From: Collimonas sp. OK412
Lineage (GTDB): Bacteria > Pseudomonadota > Gammaproteobacteria > Burkholderiales > Burkholderiaceae_D
Direction: 5' to 3'
Assembly: GCF_900112135.1 (NCBI RefSeq)
Contig: NZ_FOLC01000001.1
Span: forward strand, 62,001 to 126,000
Length of the DNA stretch: 64,000 nt
Shown in pieces: positions 7,100 through 29,078 of the stretch. The translations under genes were made by a program, and so were the position numbers. The notes below the pieces were generated by a model. That model ran no database searches. It saw only the letters and a program-made list of their open reading frames with translations, and was not told the origin of the DNA. Within the stretch, counting starts at the first letter, position 1, and every line of letters begins with the position of its first letter.

Positions 7100-9013
7100 A
7101 TGCGTGATATCTCATACAACAGGTCGAACAGGTCGGCGGAGCAATTTTCCTGCGATCCCGCGGTGATTGAAAAATCGCACCAAAGATCGAGCGCCTACGG
7201 CCTGGGGCAGCACGACAAGCCGGACATCATGCCGCTGGACCGCAGCTCCCTGTCGCTGCTGCTGGAGCAGAACAGGGTCTTGCATACGCATGCCTTGCCG
7301 GTCATGGAAACTTTGTACGAGCAGATCGTCAACACCCATAACATGGTGATCCTGACCGACGCCAACGGCGTGATCGTGCACGCGCTCGGCGACGACGATT
7401 TCCTGGTCAAGGCCAATCGCGTGGCCCTGAATCCGGGCGTGGCCTGGTCCGAGCAAAGCAAGGGCACCAATGCGATCGGCACCGCCATCGCGGAGGGCGC
7501 GCCGACCACGGTGCATGCCGACGCCCATTATCTTTCAGCCAATCATTTCCTGACCTGTTCGGCAGCGCCGATTTTCGACTACCAGGGCAATATCCTCGGC
7601 GTGCTGGATGTCAGCGGCGACCGCGGCAGCTATCACAAGCACACCATGGCGCTGGTGCGCATGTCGGCGCAGATGATCGAGAACCAGTTGTTTACGGCGG
7701 CATTCGAGAATGCCGTCACGCTGCATTTCCATAGCCGGCCCGAATTCATCGGCACGCTGGTGGAAGGCATCGCCTGCTTCACCCCCGGCGGCCGTTTCCT
7801 GTCGGCCAACCGCAGCGCCTTGTTCCAGCTGGGTTTGTCGCAGGCGGCGTTGCAGTCGCATACCTTCAGCTCGCTGTTCGGCTTGCCGCTGTCGACCTTG
7901 TTCGACCACTACCGTGCTGCCGCTCCGGGCCTGCTCAGCCTGTGCCTGCACAGCGGCGTCAAGGTCTATGCCCGCGCTGAATTGAGGCTGGCCAACAGCG
8001 TGTTCCAGCATTACAGCGAACAGCCGCCCCTGCCGGCGGCTGCTGCGCCGAAAACGGCGCCGCGCCGCCTGTCCAGCTTGCGTTACCTGAATACCGGCGA
8101 TCCGCACATGGCGACCCTGATCGGCAAGCTCGAGAAGGTGGCGGGGCGCGACATCCCGGTCCTGATTACCGGCGAGACCGGCACCGGCAAGGAATTGCTG
8201 GCGCAGGCGATCCATAACGACTCGCCGCGCAAGGACAATGCTTTCGTCGCCGTCAACTGTGCTTCGATTCCGGAAACGCTGATCGAATCAGAACTGTTCG
8301 GTTACGAAGAAGGGGCGTTTACCGGCGCCCGCAAAAAGGGCGGGAAGGGCAAGCTGTTGCAAGCCAACGGCGGTACGCTGTTCCTGGATGAGATCGGCGA
8401 CATGCCGCTCGGCCTGCAAGCGCGCTTGTTGCGCGTGTTGCAGGAGCGGGTGGTGACGCCGCTGGGCAGCACCAAGGCGATCCCGGTCAACCTCGCGGTG
8501 ATTTGCGCCACCAACCGCAACCTGCGCGAATTGATCGCGGCCAATCTGTTTCGTGAAGACCTCTATTATCGTTTGAACGGCCTGGTGGTCAAGCTGCCGG
8601 CCTTGCGCGAACGCAGCGATCTCGATGTCATCGTCGACCGGCTGCTGGCGGAAGCCGGCAGCGAGGGCCGCAGCTGCAGCGTCGCGCCCGACATCATGGA
8701 CCTGTTTCGCAGGCACAGCTGGCCGGGGAATTTCCGCCAGCTGAGCAACCTGCTGCGGACCGCGGTAGTCATGGCCGAGGATGGCGGACTGATCCGGCTG
8801 GAGCACCTGCCCGACGACTTCCTGGAGGATGTGCAGCCTCAGCCGCCGGTCGCGGTTGCCGTGGCCCCGGATAGCGGCGCCGGCAGCCTGGAAGACCTGG
8901 CGCAGGCCGCAGTCAGGAAAGCCTTTGCCGCCAGCGGCGGCAACGTCTCCGCTACCGCCAAGGCGCTGGGAGTTTCGCGCAATACCGTGTATCGCAAATT
9001 GAACTTGCGTTAG
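7100..9013 (+). CDS. AcoR-like sigma-54-dependent transcriptional activator (GAF-AAA+-Fis)
   Basis: 637 residues from the ATG preceded by AAGGAGACAAA. Residues about 60-195 form the GAF-type sensor of the AcoR group (NPGVAWSEQSKGTNAIGTAIAEG is characteristic). A second weak PAS-like stretch follows to about 300. The AAA+ domain has Walker A GETGTGKE (from 358), the sigma-54 contact loop GAFTGA (405-410) and Walker B LFLDEIGD (Asp430, Glu431). A Fis-type helix-turn-helix ends the protein (GNVSATAKALGVSRNTVYRKL). Relatives activate acetoin, acetaldehyde or alcohol catabolic genes with RNA polymerase carrying sigma-54. No sigma-54 promoter was found beside it. The nearest ones lie in the ethanolamine operon at 25.6 and 27.7 kb, a plausible but unproven target. 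Confidence 0.9.
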   Translation: MRDISYNRSNRSAEQFSCDPAVIEKSHQRSSAYGLGQHDKPDIMPLDRSSLSLLLEQNRVLHTHALPVMETLYEQIVNTHNMVILTDANGVIVHALGDDDFLVKANRVALNPGVAWSEQSKGTNAIGTAIAEGAPTTVHADAHYLSANHFLTCSAAPIFDYQGNILGVLDVSGDRGSYHKHTMALVRMSAQMIENQLFTAAFENAVTLHFHSRPEFIGTLVEGIACFTPGGRFLSANRSALFQLGLSQAALQSHTFSSLFGLPLSTLFDHYRAAAPGLLSLCLHSGVKVYARAELRLANSVFQHYSEQPPLPAAAAPKTAPRRLSSLRYLNTGDPHMATLIGKLEKVAGRDIPVLITGETGTGKELLAQAIHNDSPRKDNAFVAVNCASIPETLIESELFGYEEGAFTGARKKGGKGKLLQANGGTLFLDEIGDMPLGLQARLLRVLQERVVTPLGSTKAIPVNLAVICATNRNLRELIAANLFREDLYYRLNGLVVKLPALRERSDLDVIVDRLLAEAGSEGRSCSVAPDIMDLFRRHSWPGNFRQLSNLLRTAVVMAEDGGLIRLEHLPDDFLEDVQPQPPVAVAVAPDSGAGSLEDLAQAAVRKAFAASGGNVSATAKALGVSRNTVYRKLNLR

Positions 9014-20741: not shown

Positions 20742-21740
20742 ATGCGTATCAATTTACCCGGCAAAGTCGGATTCGGCACCGCTCCTTTAGGCAACATGTT
20801 CCGCGATATCCCGGCGCAGGAAGCGCTGGATACGGTAGAAGCGGCGTGGCAGAACGGCATCCGTTATTTCGACGCTGCGCCTTTTTACGGCGCCGGCCTG
20901 GCCGAACTGCGCCTGGGCGAGGCGCTGGCTGTTCGTCCGCGTGAGGAATATGCGCTGAGCACCAAGGTCGGCCGCCTGATCCTGGATGAAATCGAAGACA
21001 CCGGCTCGCGCGACATGGGCGAGAAGGGCGGCCTGTTCGTGCACGGCTTGCCAAACAAGGTGGTCTACGATTACAGCGCCGACGGCACCCTGCGCTCCAT
21101 CGAAGACAGCCTGAAGCGCTTGCGCACCGACCGCATCGACTATGTGTGGATCCACGACATCGCCCAGGATTTCCATGGCGAGAACTGGCTTGAAGTATTT
21201 GGCATCGCCATGAACGGCGCGGCCAAGGCGCTGACGCGTTTGCGCGAAGAAGGCGTGATCAGGGGCTGGGGCCTGGGCGTGAACAAGGTTGAACCTTGCA
21301 TGCTGACCTTGCAGCAGGCCGATCCCGACGGTTTCCTGCTGGCCGGCCGCTATACCTTGCTTGACCACCAGCATGCGCTGGAGCAGCTGATGCCTGCCTG
21401 CACACAGCGCGGGGCCGGGATTGTCGTCGGCGGACCGTACAACTCCGGCATCCTGGCCGGCGGCGAGCACTTTGAGTATCAAAAGGCGACGCCGGAAATG
21501 ATCAAGCGAGTCCAGCATCTGCAGGCTATCGCCGCGCAATACAAGGTCGACATCAAGGCCGCGGCCCTGCAATTCTCGCTAGCCCATCCGGCGGTGGCGG
21601 CGGTGATTCCTGGCGCCAGCCGTCCCGAACGCATCGCGGAAAACCTGGCGCTGGCGGCAGCGCCCGTTCCTGCCGAATTCTGGCTGGCGCTGCGCGAGCA
21701 AGGGCTGGTTGCAGCCAATGCGCCGCTGCCAGGCATCTGA
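20742..21740 (+). CDS. Aldo/keto reductase (D-threo-aldose/pyridoxal dehydrogenase-like)
   Basis: 332 residues from the ATG preceded by GAAGGAAATATC. The tetrad is visible: Asp and Tyr in RYFDAAPFYGAGLAELRLGEAL, Lys in STKVGRL, His in YVWIHDI. VIPGASRPERIAENLAL is the cofactor-binding end. This subgroup (COG0667, AKR15-like) includes D-threo-aldose 1-dehydrogenase, L-fucose dehydrogenase and pyridoxal 4-dehydrogenase, all oxidising a sugar or pyridoxal lactol. The substrate cannot be fixed. It ends 31 bp from the convergent eutC gene. Confidence 0.85.
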   Translation: MRINLPGKVGFGTAPLGNMFRDIPAQEALDTVEAAWQNGIRYFDAAPFYGAGLAELRLGEALAVRPREEYALSTKVGRLILDEIEDTGSRDMGEKGGLFVHGLPNKVVYDYSADGTLRSIEDSLKRLRTDRIDYVWIHDIAQDFHGENWLEVFGIAMNGAAKALTRLREEGVIRGWGLGVNKVEPCMLTLQQADPDGFLLAGRYTLLDHQHALEQLMPACTQRGAGIVVGGPYNSGILAGGEHFEYQKATPEMIKRVQHLQAIAAQYKVDIKAAALQFSLAHPAVAAVIPGASRPERIAENLALAAAPVPAEFWLALREQGLVAANAPLPGI

Positions 21741-21771
21741 TTTTCAATCAGGAAGATCCGGCGGCCCGGCG

Positions 21772-22578
21772 CTATTCCAGCAGGAAATTGCGTTCGGGCT
21801 GTTGCAGTTTGCCGTGCTCGCTTGCGGTTTCGTCTTTCAATTGCACGCCGGACAATTGGCGCTGGCGCGCTTGCGCCAGCAGGTAGTGCAACTTGTAGGC
21901 CGCTTCCGCATAAGACAAGCCGGCCGGCCTGACGTTGGAAATGCAATTGCGGCTTTCATCGGTCAGGCCGACGCGCGGCGCCCAGGTCAGGTACAGGCCC
22001 ATGCTGTCCGGCGAACTCAGGCCGGGCCGTTCACCGATCAGCACCACTACCATTTTTGCACCCAGCAGCTGGCCCACCTCGTCGCCGATGGCGACCCGTC
22101 CCTGGCGCACGATGGCCAGCGGCGCCAGCGTCCAGTGTTCCGGCTCCAGCCTTTGCTTGAGGGCGCTGAGGAAAGGCAGGGCGTTTTGTTCGATGGCCAG
22201 TGCGGACAGGCCGTCGGCGATGACGATGGCCAGGTCGTAACGGCGCGAGGCGCTGTGCGGCTGGTCAGTCAGCGCACTGCGCGAGGCGGCGTCGAGGCGG
22301 CGCCCCAGGTCCGGGCGCTGCAGATAGATGTCGCGCGTTTCAGCGGCGCTGGACAGGGTAATGCAGATGTCGCCGCTGTTGTTCAAGGCTTGCCTCAGCG
22401 CCTGGGTATCGAGCGCCAGGTGCACGGCATCGCGCGCCCGCGCATGGGCCAGCTGGAACTCCAGCTGCGCCGAAGTGGGCAGGCTGACGCCGCTGCGGCC
22501 CAGGGCGATCCGGGCCGCGGTGAATTGCCGCAGGGCCTGCCAGGGATTGTCTACTACAGTAGGATTCGAATCGCTCAT
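21772..22578 (-). CDS. eutC: Ethanolamine ammonia-lyase small subunit
   Basis: 268 residues, typical for EutC. Family motifs include [41 protein letters not shown] and [24 protein letters not shown]. EutC completes the B12 pocket with EutB; together they split ethanolamine into acetaldehyde and ammonia. The ATG at 22578 is preferred since GAGG lies 7 nt upstream; an ATG two codons earlier has almost no spacing. It follows eutB by 9 bp and ends the operon. No eutA reactivase or microcompartment shell gene is present, as in the short ethanolamine operons of Pseudomonas. Confidence 0.95.
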
Positions 22579-22587
22579 GTGCATGCC

Positions 22588-23991
22588 TCAGGACAAACGC
22601 AGCAGGGCGTGCTGGAACGCCGGCGGCAGTTCGTCGCCCAGTTTGACCTGGCTGTCTTCAGTAAAGATTTTCATGGTTTTCAGCCATGCCTCGAATTCCG
22701 GCGCCGGTTTCAGCCCAAGCACGCGCCGCGCATAGAGCGCGTCATGGAAAGAGGTGGTCTGGTAATTAAGCATGATGTCGTCCGACCCCGGGATGCCCAT
22801 GACGAAGGTGCAGCCGGCGGCGCCGAGCAAGGTCAGCAGGATGTCCATGTCGTTCTGGTCGGCTTCGGCATGGTTGGTGTAGCAGACATCGCAGCCCATC
22901 GGCAGGCCGAGCAGCTTGGCGCAGAAATGGTCTTCCAGGCCGGCGCGGATGATCTGCTTGCCGTCGTACAGGTATTCGGGGCCGATGAAGCCGACCACGG
23001 AATTGACCAGCAGCGGCTTGAACTCGCGCGCCACGGCATAGGCGCGCGCTTCGCAGGTCTGCTGGTCGACGCCGTGATGGGCATTGGCCGACAGCGCACT
23101 GCCCTGGCCGGTCTCGAAATACATGACGTTGTTGCCGACGGTGCCGCGCTGCAGCGACAGCGCCGCATCATGCGCTTCGGCCAGCAGCTTGAGGCTGATG
23201 CCGAAACTCTGGTTGGCGGCTTCGGTGCCGGCAATCGACTGGAACACCAGGTCCACCGGGGCCCCGCGGTTGATCGCCTCTATGGTGTTGGTGACGTGGG
23301 TCAGCACGCAGGATTGGGTAGGTATCTGGTAGCGGTCGATGATGTCGTTGAGCATGCCGACGATCTTGATTACCTGCGGCACATTGTCGGTAGCAGGATT
23401 GATGCCGATGACCGCGTCGCCGCTGCCGTACAGCAGGCCGTCGAGGATGCTGGCGGCGATGCCGGTGGCGTCGTCGGTCGGATGGTTCGGCTGCAGGCGG
23501 GTCGACAGGCTGTGCGGCAGGCCGATGGTGTTGCGGAAGCGCGTCACCACCCGGCATTTTTTCCCGACCAGGATCAGGTCTTGCACACGCATGATCTTGG
23601 ATACCGCGGCCGCCATTTCAGGGGTGATGCCGGGCGCCGCCGCGGCCAGCACGATGTCGTCGACCTGGTCGCTCAGCAGCCAGTTGCGGAAATCGCCCAC
23701 CGTCAAATGCCTGATGGCGGCAAAGGCGGCGGCGTCATGGCGGTCGATGATCAGGCGGCTGATTTCATCCTGTTCATACGGCACCAGCAAGTCGTTCAGG
23801 AAGGTCGACAGCGGCAGCTCGGCCAGCTTCATCTGGGCCGCTACCCTTTCCTCCGCGCTGCCGGCGGCCAGCCCTGCCAGGTAATCGCCGGAGCGGGGCG
23901 GGGTGGCCTTGGCCATCAAGTCTTTCAGGTCGCGGAACAGATAGGTCCTGGCCCCGACGATATGGCTGAACTGATGCGTTCGGTTATTCAC
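22588..23991 (-). CDS. eutB: Ethanolamine ammonia-lyase large subunit
   Basis: 467 residues, close to the usual EutB length. The TIM-barrel sequence is well conserved, for example LQPNHPTDDATGIAASILDGLLYGSGDAVIGINPATDN, FQSIAGTEAANQSFGISL, FETGQGSALSANAHHGVDQQTCEARAY and GLPMGCDVCYTNHAEADQNDMD. It carries the radical chemistry with adenosylcobalamin. A GTG at 23991 is the likely start, because GGAGG lies 10 nt before it and no in-frame ATG fits. The permease gene ends 47 bp upstream, so the genes are cotranscribed. Confidence 0.95.
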   Translation of the reverse strand: MNNRTHQFSHIVGARTYLFRDLKDLMAKATPPRSGDYLAGLAAGSAEERVAAQMKLAELPLSTFLNDLLVPYEQDEISRLIIDRHDAAAFAAIRHLTVGDFRNWLLSDQVDDIVLAAAAPGITPEMAAAVSKIMRVQDLILVGKKCRVVTRFRNTIGLPHSLSTRLQPNHPTDDATGIAASILDGLLYGSGDAVIGINPATDNVPQVIKIVGMLNDIIDRYQIPTQSCVLTHVTNTIEAINRGAPVDLVFQSIAGTEAANQSFGISLKLLAEAHDAALSLQRGTVGNNVMYFETGQGSALSANAHHGVDQQTCEARAYAVAREFKPLLVNSVVGFIGPEYLYDGKQIIRAGLEDHFCAKLLGLPMGCDVCYTNHAEADQNDMDILLTLLGAAGCTFVMGIPGSDDIMLNYQTTSFHDALYARRVLGLKPAPEFEAWLKTMKIFTEDSQVKLGDELPPAFQHALLRLS

Positions 23992-24038
23992 TGACAGCGT
24001 CCTCCAGGCAGATGGCCGCACTGCTTTTTACGCAGCCC

Positions 24039-25430
24039 TTACGCAATATCATAGGCGCTTTGCTCGGCGCTGCGGCTGTTTTTCGTCATCAGGAACACCG
24101 CATAGCCAAAAGCCAGGAAGGCAGCGAAGATGCCGAAGATCAGCGCATTGTAATAAATCATGGTGGCCATGCAGACGCAGGCGCCGACCAGCGCAAACGC
24201 CGGGAACCATGGATACAGCGGCGCGCGGAACGGCCGCGCCATGTCGGGCGCGCTGCGGCGCAGGCGGAACAGGCTCAGCATGCTGATGATGTACATGGTG
24301 ATGGCGCCGAACACCGACATGGTGACGATGTTGGCGGTCAGGGTCTGGCCGCCGAGCTTGATCAGTTCGTCGCTGTAGATGGCGGCGATGCCGATCACGC
24401 CGCCGGCCAGGATCGCCCGGTGCGGGGTCTTGAAGCGCGGATGGATCTTGGCGAAATAGCCGGGCAGGTAGCCATCCCGGGCCAGCGCGAAAATCTGCCG
24501 CGAATAACCGAGGATGATGCCGTGGAAGGAGGCGATCAGGCCGAACAGGCCGAGCCAGACCAGCATGTGCAGCCAGCTGCTGTGTTCGCCGACGATCAGT
24601 TTCATCGCCTGCGGCAGCGGATCGTTGATGTTGGCCAGCTTGGTCCAGTCGCCGGCGCCGCCGGCAAACACCATGACGCCGATGGCCAGCAGCACCAGGG
24701 TGATGATGCCGGTGATGTAGGCGATCGGGATCGAACGCTTCGGATCCTTGGCTTCTTCGGCCGCCATCGCCACGCCTTCGATCGCCAGGAAAAACCAGAT
24801 GGCGAACGGGATCGCGGCAAACATGCCGGGAATGGCGGCCAGGCTGAAACTGTCCTGGCCGGACCAGCCGCCCTTGACGAAATGCGCCACCGAAAATCCT
24901 GGCGAGACCACGCCCATGAACACCAGCAGTTCGAAAATCGCCAGCAGGGTCACGCACAGCTCAAACATGGCGGCAATCTGCACGCCGACGATATTGAGCG
25001 CCATGAACACCACATAGGCGCCGACCGCGGCGGTCTTGGGATCGAGCGACGGGAACTGCACGTTGAGATAGGCGCCGATCGCCAGCGCAATCGCCGGCGG
25101 CGCAAACACGAATTCGATCAGGGTGGCGGCGCCGGCAAAGTAGCCGCCCAACGGTCCGAAGGCTTTTTTGCTGTAGGCGAACGGCCCGCCGGCATGCGGG
25201 ATGGAAGTGGTCAGTTCGGTGAAGCTGAAGATGAACGCGGTGTACATGGCGGCGATAAACAGCGCCGTCACGGTAAAGCCCAGCGTGCCGGCCGAAGCCC
25301 AGCCATAACTCCAGCCGAAATATTCGCCCGAAATCACCAGGCCGACGGCGATCCCCCAAAGCTGTATCGTGCCCAGGGTCTGTTTCAAGGCGGGGGCGGC
25401 GCTGGCGCCTGAGCCGGTTTTTGCATTCAT
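24039..25430 (-). CDS. eat: Ethanolamine permease (APC superfamily)
   Basis: 463 residues with about 12 hydrophobic helices. The opening TLGTIQLWGIAVGLVISGEYFGWSYGWASAGTLGF and FTELTTSIPHAGGPFAYSKKAFGPLGGYFAGAATLIEFVFAPPAIALAIGAY are characteristic of ethanolamine permeases of the APC family. The ATG at 25430 follows GGAGAAG; the frame extends upstream to 25685 through the leader with no homology. A 196-bp leader separates it from the DUF779 gene and contains a -24/-12 promoter. The gene lies just before eutB, so imported ethanolamine is the evident substrate. Confidence 0.93.
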   Translation of the reverse strand: MNAKTGSGASAAPALKQTLGTIQLWGIAVGLVISGEYFGWSYGWASAGTLGFTVTALFIAAMYTAFIFSFTELTTSIPHAGGPFAYSKKAFGPLGGYFAGAATLIEFVFAPPAIALAIGAYLNVQFPSLDPKTAAVGAYVVFMALNIVGVQIAAMFELCVTLLAIFELLVFMGVVSPGFSVAHFVKGGWSGQDSFSLAAIPGMFAAIPFAIWFFLAIEGVAMAAEEAKDPKRSIPIAYITGIITLVLLAIGVMVFAGGAGDWTKLANINDPLPQAMKLIVGEHSSWLHMLVWLGLFGLIASFHGIILGYSRQIFALARDGYLPGYFAKIHPRFKTPHRAILAGGVIGIAAIYSDELIKLGGQTLTANIVTMSVFGAITMYIISMLSLFRLRRSAPDMARPFRAPLYPWFPAFALVGACVCMATMIYYNALIFGIFAAFLAFGYAVFLMTKNSRSAEQSAYDIA

Positions 25431-25597
25431 GAGGCTTCTCCACGGGATAGGTGCACGTAAATCGAAAGGAAATGCGTCGCTCCGCGTTCCGCTGCGCCAC
25501 TTTGGACAGCTTGCAGGCGAAAGCGGTGCATCTCTGTTGCCGGGTCGGCAGGCAGCGATTGCGGCCTGGTCTTGAAGGCAGGCAAGGGCAAAACAAA

Positions 25598-25614
25598 AGC
25601 AAAATGTGTGCCTT
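25598..25614 (-). promoter_or_regulatory. Candidate sigma-54 promoter for eat-eutBC
   Basis: Minus-strand AAGGCACACATTTTGCT matches the -24/-12 consensus YTGGCACG-N4-TTGCW with the GG and GC elements exactly 10 nt apart; only the T before GG and the G after CAC differ. It lies 13 bp past the DUF779 stop and about 170 bp before the permease start, predicting a start near 25588. Confidence 0.6.
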
Positions 25615-25626
25615 TGTGGTGCACAA

Positions 25627-26025
25627 TCATTTAGCGGCTTGTTTGCCCAACAATAGCGGGACCTCGTCCAGCAGCGCATACTCATCGTCGCTGAACAGGC
25701 GCGAACGGCTCAGGAAGCGCCTGCCGCTGCCGTTATCGACAGAAAACATGCCGCCGTTGCCTGCCACTACATCAATGATCAGCTGGGTGTGTTTCCAGTA
25801 TTCAAACTGGTCGGCGCCGATATAAAACGGTGCGCCGTCCAGGTCGCCCAGATAGACATCGGCATCGCCGACCTGGAAATCGCCGATGGCGTAGCACATG
25901 GGCGAGCTGCCGTCGCAGCAGCCGCCGGATTGAAAGAACATGAGCGGGCCGTGCTTTTGCCTGAGCTGCTGCAGGAATTCCAGTGCGGCGCCGGTGGCGC
26001 TGACGCGGGCGGGGATGGCGGGCAT
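25627..26025 (-). CDS. DUF779 family protein
   Basis: 132 residues. FFQSGGCCDGSSPMCYAIGDFQVGDADVYLGDLDGAPFYIGADQFEYWKHTQLIIDVVAGNGGMFSVDN is the complete DUF779 signature. Cys36, Cys37 and Cys44 are strictly placed and could bind metal or act as thiols. DUF779 genes are found next to AcoD/ExaC-type aldehyde dehydrogenases, as here, 76 bp after the dehydrogenase gene. The role is unknown; help with the dehydrogenase or aldehyde detoxification is an inference from position. No clear SD is seen before the ATG. Confidence 0.9.
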   Translation of the reverse strand: MPAIPARVSATGAALEFLQQLRQKHGPLMFFQSGGCCDGSSPMCYAIGDFQVGDADVYLGDLDGAPFYIGADQFEYWKHTQLIIDVVAGNGGMFSVDNGSGRRFLSRSRLFSDDEYALLDEVPLLLGKQAAK

Positions 26026-26059
26026 GATGTATGGTCGCTGGTGACGGGATAGCGGAATG

Positions 26060-26096
26060 CCGGCTCCTGCCCCGGTGCAGACGGAGCAGGAGCCGG
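26060..26096. repeat. Intercistronic stem-loop between acoD and the DUF779 gene
   Basis: CCGGCTCCTGC and GCAGGAGCCGG, 11-bp perfect arms around a 15-nt loop, lie between the dehydrogenase stop and the DUF779 start. There is no U tract. It could protect the upstream mRNA or attenuate read-through. Confidence 0.45.
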
Positions 26097-26101
26097 TGCG
26101 T

Positions 26102-27622
26102 TTAGAAAAAGCCCAGGGCGTTCGGGCTGTAGCTGACCAGCAGGTTCTTGGTTTGCTGGTAGTGGTCCAGCATCATCTTGTGGTTTTCGCGGCCTATGCC
26201 GGACTGCTTGTAGCCGCCGAATGCCGCATGGGCCGGATACAGGTGGTAGCAGTTGGTCCATACCCGGCCGGCCTGGATCCCGCGTCCCATGCGGAAGGCG
26301 CGCGAGCCGTCGCGGGTCCACAAGCCTGCGCCCAGGCCGTACAAGGTGTCGTTCGCCAGGGCCAGCGCTTCTTCCTCGTCCTTGAAGGTGGTGACAGACA
26401 GCACCGGGCCGAAGATTTCTTCCTGGAAGATGCGCATCTTGTTATTGCCTTCAAAGACTGTCGGCTCGACGTAGTAGCCGGCGTCGAAGTCGCCGCCCAG
26501 CTGCTTGCGCGTGCCGCCGGTGAGCAGCTTTGCGCCTTCCTGCTTGCCGATGTCGATGTAGGACAGGATTTTTTCCAGCTGTTCCTGCGAAGCCTGGGCG
26601 CCGATCATGGTGGCGCTGTCGAGCGGGTTGCCTTGCTTGATGGCCTTGACCCGTTTCAGCGCGCGCTCCATGAAGCGGTCGTAGATCGATTCCTGGATCA
26701 GCGCGCGCGATGGACAGGTGCAGACTTCGCCCTGGTTCAAGGCGAACATGGCGAAACCTTCCAGGCACTTGTCGAAAAACGCATCGTCCTGGTCCATGAC
26801 GTCGGCAAAAAATACGTTAGGCGATTTGCCGCCCAGTTCCAGCGTCACCGGAATGATGTTTTGCGAAGCGTATTGCATGATCAGGCGGCCGGTGGTGGTT
26901 TCGCCGGTGAAGGCGATCTTGGCGATGCGCTTGCTGGAGGCCAGCGGCTTGCCGGCTTCCAGGCCGAAGCCGTTGACGATGTTGAGCACGCCGGGCGGCA
27001 GCAGGTCCTGCACCAGCTCGACCCAGACCATGATCGATGCCGGCGTCTGCTCGGCCGGTTTCAACACGACGCAATTGCCCGCGGCCAGCGCCGGCGCCAG
27101 TTTCCAGACCGCCATCAGGATCGGGAAATTCCATGGGATGATCTGGCCTACGACGCCCAGCGGTTCGTGGAAGTGATAGGCGTAGGTCTGGTCGTCGATG
27201 GTGGCGACCGAGCCTTCCTGGGCTCGGATGCAGGCGGCGAAATAGCGGAAATGGTCGATCGCCAGCGGGATGTCGGCGGCGGTGGTTTCGCGTATCGGTT
27301 TGCCGTTGTCGATGGTTTCGGCGATCGCCAGCAGTTCCAGGTTGGCCTCCATGCGGTCGGCGATCTTGTTGAGGATGTTGGCGCGTTCCGCCGGCGAGGT
27401 CTTGCCCCAGGCGACTTTGGCGGCGTGCGCCGCATCCAGCGCCAGTTCGATGTCTTCGGCGCCGGAGCGGGCGATTTCACAAAAGGTCTTGCCGATCACC
27501 GGGCTGACGTTCTCGAAATATTCGCCCTTGACCGGCGCCACGAACTTGCCGCCGATGAAATTGTCATAACGTTGCTTGAATGGATTGCGCGTGGCTAGCT
27601 TGCTGATGTCTGCGAGATTCAT
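26102..27622 (-). CDS. acoD: NAD+-dependent acetaldehyde dehydrogenase (AcoD/ExaC type)
   Basis: 506 residues, the normal AcoD length. Catalytic residues are Glu262 in [14 protein letters not shown] and Cys301 in [16 protein letters not shown]+ contacts include IIPWNFP and [12 protein letters not shown]. The enzyme would oxidise acetaldehyde to acetate in the cytoplasm, the second step after EutBC. GAGG lies 7 nt before the ATG. It heads the run acoD, DUF779, eat, eutB, eutC on the minus strand. In Ralstonia eutropha acoD expression depends on sigma-54 and AcoR, and a well-formed -24/-12 promoter lies 62 bp upstream here. Confidence 0.93.
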
Positions 27623-27683
27623 GTCGTCCTCTGGCTTGGAATGAGTGAGTGGGATTCAGCGCTACAAACTGCATCTGTTATTG

Positions 27684-27700
27684 CGCAACGAATGTGCCAG
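27684..27700 (-). promoter_or_regulatory. Sigma-54 (-24/-12) promoter of the acoD-led operon
   Basis: Minus-strand CTGGCACATTCGTTGCG matches TGGCAC-N5-TTGC with the invariant GG and GC exactly 10 nt apart. It predicts a transcript start near 27672 and a leader of about 50 nt before the acoD ATG. This is the best -24/-12 match I found in the window. Confidence 0.7.
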
Positions 27701-27829
27701 TGCCGCGCCAATGCCGCGGCAGCACCGCCAGGATCGCCGAGAGTCAGGCCTGGCGCGGCTTGCGGAGGAGCGGAAAGTTGGCGATGGCGGTTTGGACGGC
27801 AGTCTGGTATTTTAAAAACACGCAACAAC

Positions 27830-27846
27830 TGTTCCGTTACTGAACA
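27830..27846. promoter_or_regulatory. Candidate activator (enhancer) site for sigma-54 regulator
   Basis: TGTTCCGTTACTGAACA has perfect 5-bp arms (TGTTC/GAACA) around a 7-nt spacer. It lies about 130 bp upstream of the -24/-12 element of the acoD promoter, where Fis-type activator dimers usually bind. The binding protein is not known. Confidence 0.45.
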
Positions 27847-28052
27847 ATGGCCGGGTACAGTTGCTGCAAAATGTGCCAGGGCTGGCGCCAGCGCCGTTGC
27901 CGATCATGAACCCCCGGGAAAATACACCCGGCACACAAAGCCAAAGATTGGTAAATTAGCAGCACAGGAGACTGTGGTCAGGCCTTGTCACCGACATGAA
28001 ATTGCGGGCAAGAACCCATTTCAACCGATAGCAATCTTCAGGAATATTTTTC

Positions 28053-29078
28053 ATGCAGAACAAGATAATGACTTTGGCGTTGCAGGGCGGCGGTTCGCAT
28101 GGAGCATTCACCTGGGGCGCCCTGGATCGCCTGCTGGAAGATCCCCGGATCGAGATCGAAGGCATCAGCGGCGCTAGCGCCGGCGCCATGAATGCGGTGG
28201 CGATGAGCTACGGCCTGGCGATCGGCGGCCGCGACGGCGCGCGCCAGGCGCTGGCCGATTTCTGGGATAGCGTCAGCACGCGGGATCTCTACAGTTTCAT
28301 GCGGCCGGACGCCTTGAGCGAAGCCGGCATCGCGTCGCAGGCGACATCGTCGGCGCTGCTGAAACACATGTTCTCGGTGACCAGGATGTTCTCGCCGTAC
28401 CAGCTCAATCCGTTTGACCTGAACCCCTTGCGCGACATCCTCAGCAAGCAGATCGACTTTGAACGCCTGCGGGCGGAAGGCAAGGTCAAGCTGTTCATCG
28501 CGGCCACCCAGGTCAGCACCGGCCGCCTGCGCATCTTCCGCAATGACGACCTGACGCAGGACGCCTTGCTGGCGTCGGCTTGCCTGCCGTCGATGCACCA
28601 TGCGGTGGAGATTGACGGCGAAGCCTACTGGGACGGCGGCCTGACTGCCAACCCGCCGATTTTCCCGCTGCTGCATCTGTGCAACTCGCCCGATATCCTG
28701 GCGGTGCTGCTGCATCCGTTTCGCCGGCCGCTGACGCCGACCGGCACCGACGAGATTGGCCAGCGTCTGAGCGAAATCAGTTTCAGCTCAACCTTCTTTA
28801 CCGAACTGGGCGGCCTGGCGCTGGCCAAGCGCGAAACCGAAGCCGATCCCGACGCGCGCGGCAAGATGCATGAGCGGCTCAAGGAACTGCGCATCCACGT
28901 GATCGATTCGGATGCCCTGATGAGCCAGCTGAGCGTGGCCAGCAAGCTCAATACCAAGGCGTCTTTCATCCACGCCTTGCGCGACGCCGGCCGGACGCGC
29001 GCCGAACTATGGCTGACCGAGAAATTTGCCGGCGCCGAGCTGATATCGAATTTCGACCTCGACCAATTCCTGGCTTGA
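28053..29078 (+). CDS. Patatin-like phospholipase
   Basis: 341 residues. The patatin catalytic dyad is complete: the Gly-rich oxyanion loop LQGGGSHGAF (about 10-19), the nucleophile GASAG with Ser42, and Asp194 in YWDGGLTANPP. No signal peptide is present, so it acts inside the cell or is secreted by another route. Patatins hydrolyse acyl chains of phospholipids or other lipids. The alpha/beta hydrolase gene follows after 5 bp and is surely cotranscribed. CAGGAATATTTTTC precedes the ATG. Confidence 0.9.
   Translation: MQNKIMTLALQGGGSHGAFTWGALDRLLEDPRIEIEGISGASAGAMNAVAMSYGLAIGGRDGARQALADFWDSVSTRDLYSFMRPDALSEAGIASQATSSALLKHMFSVTRMFSPYQLNPFDLNPLRDILSKQIDFERLRAEGKVKLFIAATQVSTGRLRIFRNDDLTQDALLASACLPSMHHAVEIDGEAYWDGGLTANPPIFPLLHLCNSPDILAVLLHPFRRPLTPTGTDEIGQRLSEISFSSTFFTELGGLALAKRETEADPDARGKMHERLKELRIHVIDSDALMSQLSVASKLNTKASFIHALRDAGRTRAELWLTEKFAGAELISNFDLDQFLA

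Follow-up and report, generated by a model that had tools for sequence, protein, structure and literature searches.

An apparent two-module ethanolamine operon with two predicted sigma-54 promoters in Collimonas

The stretch analysed here, called the window, comprises 64,000 nucleotides of Collimonas sp. OK412 (assembly GCF_900112135.1, contig NZ_FOLC01000001.1, positions 62,001 to 126,000), and all coordinates are those of the window. On its minus strand lies an operon for the use of ethanolamine that consists of acoD, encoding an acetaldehyde dehydrogenase of the acoD/exaC type (26102..27622; PF00171, and NF050026 with 959 bits, above the cut-off of 900), a gene for a DUF779 protein, which is a partner gene of acoD (25627..26025; PF05610), eat, encoding an ethanolamine permease (24039..25430; TIGR00908, 652.7 bits), and eutB and eutC, encoding the large subunit (22588..24021; PF06751, NF011649) and the small subunit (21772..22584; PF05985, NF003971) of ethanolamine ammonia-lyase. 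The order is that of an acetaldehyde dehydrogenase gene followed by eat and eutBC, with the DUF779 gene inserted, and the Pfam and family matches bear out the single minus-strand run that had been described in a first-pass annotation made from the sequence alone. Alignment with relatives indicated that the start codon of eat is most likely the ATG at 25430 rather than a start at 25685; the longer frame, from 25685, would overlap the DUF779 gene. The divergent slot directly upstream of the operon is occupied by a patatin-like gene and holds no enhancer-binding protein gene.

The sigma-54 (-24/-12) promoter P1 predicted for acoD (TGGCACATTCGTTGC, 27685..27699, minus strand; 10/10 match), the promoter P2 predicted for eat-eutBC (AGGCACACATTTTGC, 25599..25613, minus strand; 9/10 match) and a palindrome of the form TGTTC-N7-GAACA (TGTTCCGTTACTGAACA, 27830..27846), about 130 bp upstream of P1, were all present where the first-pass annotation had placed them. 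P1 is the sole exact -24/-12 match in the window. By itself it is not rare, since exact matches occurred at a mean of 0.43 in shuffled windows and 35 of 100 shuffles contained at least one. The palindrome was found once, compared with a shuffle mean of 0.05. Five sites scoring 9 or more were present in the window, whereas 20 shuffles averaged 6.75 sites with a score of exactly 9 and 0.3 with a score of 10, so that P2 is not significant without its position. Given the most likely start of eat, P2 is located inside the 196-base gap between the DUF779 gene and eat, in which a site of this class is expected about 0.01 times on the right strand (arithmetic from the shuffle mean). As the chance counts alone are insufficient, the case for P1, P2 and the palindrome rests on their conservation.

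The conservation in related genomes on which the first-pass annotation had made its two-promoter claim depend was found for all three elements. Upstream of acoD, a site scoring 9 or 10 out of 10 begins 77-102 bases 5' of the start codon in 11/11 Collimonas acoD genes, and the palindrome, scoring 8-10 out of 10, is found 183-236 bases 5' of the start codon in the same 11 genes. Of the 10 Collimonas genomes whose eutB is intact, 9 contain P2, recognised in the form GGCAC[GA]-N3-TTTGC, and four of these 9 lack acoD upstream. This count is based on 15 Collimonas genomes and leaves out G197, in which eutB is in three pieces, and G102, which contains fragments; no eutB match was obtained in G083, G143 and G164. 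In other genera of the family a site of at least 9 preceded the first eat or eutB gene in only 1/29 loci (L079), where the loci examined came from 40 of the 136 genomes of the family that have eutB, and the first gene of each of the 40 was assigned manually on the basis of matches and reading frames. Outside the family 7/20 eat genes (20 of the 26 eat matches in the phylum search) had a sigma-54 site of 9 or more, a count without a shuffle control.

The acoD elements were also examined near named relatives of a regulator gene located at 7100-9013 and described below. Of 27 acoD upstream regions, 25 contained a -24/-12 site of at least 9 and 19 a palindrome of at least 8 (letter-shuffle means 0.24 and 3.62, respectively), some of the palindromes at odd positions (L159, L201). 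The 27 regions come from 30 loci with acoD; in the remaining three, the start or the side upstream of it fell outside the stretch. One of the 27 (L123) belongs to a genome that also supplied one of the eleven Collimonas genes. Given this conservation at acoD, the palindrome is likely the enhancer site of an acoD activator of the AcoR/ExaC type. A regulon could not be derived from it, as the whole genome contained three palindromes and the reversed-pattern control also three, and this approach was dropped.

No P1-type palindrome was found within 420 bases upstream of eat in eight Collimonas loci. The eat leader, downstream of P2, contains an inverted repeat (TGCACCGCTTT-N16-AAAGTGGCGCA, 25493..25530), which at 0-1 mismatches occurs only before eat, in 8 genomes. 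None was listed elsewhere in the 15 genomes at up to 2 mismatches, giving a regulon of eat alone, and the repeat may serve as a protein site or form a hairpin in the RNA. No sigma-70-like site was detected in 21500-28100, and a scan of 21000-28500 for riboswitches and known RNAs gave a single match, no better than chance (16.4 bits, with a gathering score of 100).

What lies upstream of P2 differs among the nine genomes that have it. Five of them (G000, which is the genome analysed here, G028, G153, G186 and G217) have the fused arrangement with acoD-DUF779 upstream of P2, three (G117, G175 and G208) have eat-eutBC with P2 and no acoD at the eut locus, and the eut locus of G130 consists of eutBC and P2 without eat and without acoD. 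The patatin-like neighbour is common to fused and unfused loci. Upstream of eat, the similarity between the two kinds of locus starts at ATTGTGCACCACAA, right before P2 and at the stop codon of the DUF779 gene, and in G175 and G208 acoD-DUF779 is located elsewhere, in the order acoD-DUF779-regulator. Given that sister genomes keep acoD-DUF779 elsewhere and that the similarity starts right before P2, the fused state is by parsimony most simply the derived one. This Collimonas soil bacterium appears to have joined two known modules, one for acetaldehyde disposal and one for ethanolamine import and cleavage, each with its own sigma-54 promoter. What is new is this anatomy of two modules and two promoters, and among the papers covered by the literature search none dealt with a eut operon of Collimonas or with an operon carrying both promoter kinds. 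In L068 and L070, from another genus of the family, acoD-DUF779-eutBC was found with P1, without eat and with no site before eutB, which looks like a second joining. A further arrangement was seen in G061 (L105, 3091-6873), where acoD-DUF779 is followed by a probable pyrroloquinoline quinone (PQQ) alcohol dehydrogenase gene, with the regulator nearby and genes resembling those for PQQ synthesis further on (labels by reading the sequence).

The regulator gene (7100..9013, plus strand) encodes a GAF - sigma-54 AAA+ - Fis-type helix-turn-helix activator of the AcoR/ExaC type (PF01590, PF00158, PF02954) and is the only such regulator on the contig. Of the 15 Collimonas genomes, 11 have both the regulator and acoD and 4 have neither. 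For its named relatives, the best 80 of 427 confirmed places were used. With acoD counted at 60% identity or more within the fetched stretch, acoD was nearby in 30 of these 80, a relative of the probable PQQ alcohol dehydrogenase in 31 and either of them in 52, and neither eat nor eutB was found beside the regulator in any of the fetched stretches. The DUF779 gene was present in 25 of the 80 loci, mostly next to acoD. The co-occurrence in the 15 genomes, together with the presence of acoD or PQQ dehydrogenase genes and not of eat or eutB beside the relatives, indicated that the regulator belongs to the acoD module, and the sequence comparisons suggest that P1 most likely answers to it.

P2, if active, needs another activator, since G117 and G130 keep P2 and have no match to acoD or to the 7100-9013 regulator at the thresholds used, which for the regulator was an expectation value (E) of 1e-80. 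A match to the sigma-54 gene was found in 15/15 Collimonas genomes, the copy in G102 being broken by stops. Seven strong and three weak matches to the sigma-54 activator domain were obtained in the genome, and NtrC, PrpR and RtcR were among the seven by family score. Three more we take to be a PilR-like protein, a DctD-like protein and one near apparent pilus-assembly genes, and the seventh is the 7100-9013 regulator. The best candidate for P2 is NtrC, which would be metabolically sensible and acts on the short eut locus of Klebsiella, although its site at P2 is weak. Assignment by motif matrix yielded only weak scores and was rejected. The matrix was built from 53 sites with at least 9 consensus matches in 23 upstream regions, 14 of glnA and 9 of torF, the gene before glnK (glnA, ntrB and torF labelled by reading sequences, glnK by PF00543); six further torF loci (L215, L217, L220, L223, L224 and L227), in which the match ended short of the start codon, were left out. 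A weak NtrC-like 17-mer at P2 (TGCACCACAAAGGCACA, 25607..25623, minus strand) scores 9.2, against a training median of 17.4 and minimum of 4.7, and overlaps the -24 element. At eat genes of other families, NtrC-like scores of 9.9-13.2 were obtained for L249, L254, L258, L261, L262 and L265 and low scores for others.

The gap between acoD and the DUF779 gene contains a strong hairpin of about 15 pairs without a T run (26060..26096, minus strand; -36.3 kcal/mol, z -4.7 against letter shuffles). Its stems differ among the five fused genomes yet pair in all of them (-32 to -37 kcal/mol, with z between -3.7 and -5.1), and z was below -2 in 20/30 loci, the five fused ones included. In several relatives (e.g. 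L123, L180 and L184) the hairpin is followed by a terminator-like T run, whereas the best 8 bases after it in the five fused genomes contain 2, 3, 3, 4 and 5 T; the scan script missed some T runs that were visible by eye. The hairpin may set the share of the P1 transcript that passes acoD.

From these results we consider it probable that the operon is a composite of two sigma-54 modules, with P1 driven by the 7100-9013 regulator and P2 by another activator, most likely NtrC. The acoD-DUF779 module, with P1 and the palindrome, would be switched on by the 7100-9013 enhancer-binding protein, whose signal, to judge from EatR and AcoR as analogues, is probably acetaldehyde. The eat-eutBC module would have had its own P2 before the fusion, and with NtrC as the most likely activator, ethanolamine uptake and cleavage would also be inducible by nitrogen shortage. 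In this Collimonas clade the acoD-DUF779 module would have been placed directly upstream of P2, and acetaldehyde made by EutBC would then raise eat-eutBC transcription by read-through from P1. The complete scheme, in which an aldehyde sensor acts at P1 and NtrC at P2, the disposal module is set before a nitrogen-controlled module and the toxic product feeds back positively on the operon, is put forward more tentatively, as a possibility that may well not hold in all its parts.

Several observations weigh against this interpretation. The regulator gene lies apart from the operon, at a distance of 18.6 kb from the start of acoD, and neither acoD nor PQQ dehydrogenase was found in 28 of the best 80 of 427 relatives, some of them on short contigs. 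The tenth genome with intact eutB, G061, has the regulator and acoD, and its eutBC genes lack P2 and have a divergent neighbouring EutR-like gene. No upstream P2 enhancer common to the fused and unfused clades was found. The best NtrC site at P2 scores 6.1-9.3 in 8/9 genomes, values matched by 2-15% of letter shuffles, and it overlaps the -24 element in 7/9; in the ninth genome (L048) the NtrC-like site scores 13.2 and is located inside the DUF779 gene. G117 and G130 hold further sigma-54 activators, and a distant EatR-like activator at P2 is possible in these two. The hairpin after acoD could hinder read-through from P1. Finally, the 15 Collimonas genomes are related and their agreement does not amount to 15 independent events.

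One alternative reading is a plain EatR-type operon in which the acetaldehyde-responsive 7100-9013 protein drives both promoters and P2 is an internal booster. Apart from the DUF779 gene, the genes and their order are those of EatR-type loci, and in two EatR-like loci of other families (L253 and L257, with a divergent activator and acoD-eat-eutBC) 9/10 sigma-54 sites are found before both acoD and eat. This reading seems unlikely to us, given that P2 is kept in G117 and G130 without a regulator match, that the P1-type palindrome was missing upstream of eat in the eight loci searched and that the regulator shares only 41-43% identity with the activators of L253 and L257.

Somewhat less probable still is that another enhancer-binding protein, or a factor of some other kind, activates P2 as a sigma-54 promoter from the leader repeat downstream of it. 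Within the leader, no part is better conserved than the repeat (8/8 genomes, constant 16-base spacer), it is confined to eat as described, and an upstream enhancer shared by fused and unfused loci was lacking. In G130 (L045), however, whose locus lacks eat, the repeat has degenerated and P2 is retained; the repeat can also fold as an RNA hairpin in some predicted folds, and no known regulator gene is adjacent to it. The least probable of the alternatives considered, and one that we regard as improbable, is that P2 is no promoter at all and is a conserved stretch with some other role, with eat-eutBC transcribed from P1 or from a sigma-70 promoter that escaped notice. The frequency of 9/10 matches in shuffled windows would fit such a reading. 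It is difficult to reconcile with the retention of P2 in nine of ten Collimonas genomes, including the four without acoD upstream, with the 9/10-or-better sites at eat genes outside the family and with the failure to detect a sigma-70-like site in the region.

Compared with described systems, the composite operon combines features that occur separately. In the sources cited here, short eut loci use one sigma-54 activator each, EatR in Pseudomonas and Acinetobacter and NtrC in Klebsiella. EatR and AcoR each have two PAS domains, and acetaldehyde was proposed as the signal (PMC8694187). The EatR- and RpoN-dependent PA4022-eat-eutBC locus of Pseudomonas aeruginosa has the same enzymes in the same order, no microcompartment gene being among the five Collimonas genes, and it resembles Collimonas in the -24/-12 site before the dehydrogenase gene and in a GAF/PAS - AAA+ - helix-turn-helix activator, which in Collimonas is a candidate. 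In Collimonas, however, the DUF779 gene is inserted, the candidate activator is non-adjacent, the divergent, immediately upstream enhancer-binding protein gene of an EatR-type locus is absent, and a conserved sigma-54 site of its own precedes eat, a site that also occurs without the activator. The short eut locus of Klebsiella pneumoniae is under NtrC-RpoN (PMC11101070). Like the unfused Collimonas loci, it consists of eat-eutBC with a -24/-12 site and without an adjacent regulator, whereas P2 lacks clear NtrC sites and has acoD-DUF779 fused upstream in the fused genomes. In an ntrC mutant of Burkholderia cenocepacia, decreases are reported for genes annotated as ethanolamine operon regulatory protein (PMC5491218). 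The AcoR (RSc3129) - ExaC (RSc3128) unit of Ralstonia solanacearum likewise links an enhancer-binding protein to an ExaC dehydrogenase and an RpoN promoter. PMC4676750 reports that promoter, a need for rpoN1 for growth on ethanol and a failure of the same strain to grow on ethanolamine. In contrast, the ExaC gene of this Collimonas clade leads an ethanolamine operon, and the regulator is linked and not adjacent in the window, although it is adjacent in G175 and G208. Since L253 and L257 show sigma-54-like sites before acoD and eat, the second promoter may be more general.

The sigma-54 control from two promoters proposed in the first-pass annotation is thus well supported by the conserved sequences, but it is not a different regulatory design, as sigma-54 control of ethanolamine use is already known elsewhere. 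The accompanying premise that ethanolamine regulators are AraC-type holds for EutR and had to be corrected for EatR, which is of the sigma-54 type. The natural fusion with both promoter kinds, together with its unfused sisters, would provide a way to study how carbon and nitrogen signals act on a pathway with a toxic intermediate.

With respect to AraC-type control, EutR-like genes were found in 5/40 of the family loci examined, one of them that of G061, and in 4/15 Collimonas genomes, and all nine genomes that have P2 were without one. No match was obtained in the genome analysed here with the G061 protein as query at E 1e-30. Two of the proteins scored 219 and 263 bits against the EutR family cut-off of 319, and they were therefore called EutR-like and not assigned to the family. 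The same genus would provide an opportunity to see how EutR and sigma-54 control exchange. In three genomes without a eutB match, EutR-like genes were found at L244 (G083), L245 (G164) and L246 (G143) that are 65-66% identical to that of G061, and the gene of G083 holds an internal stop.

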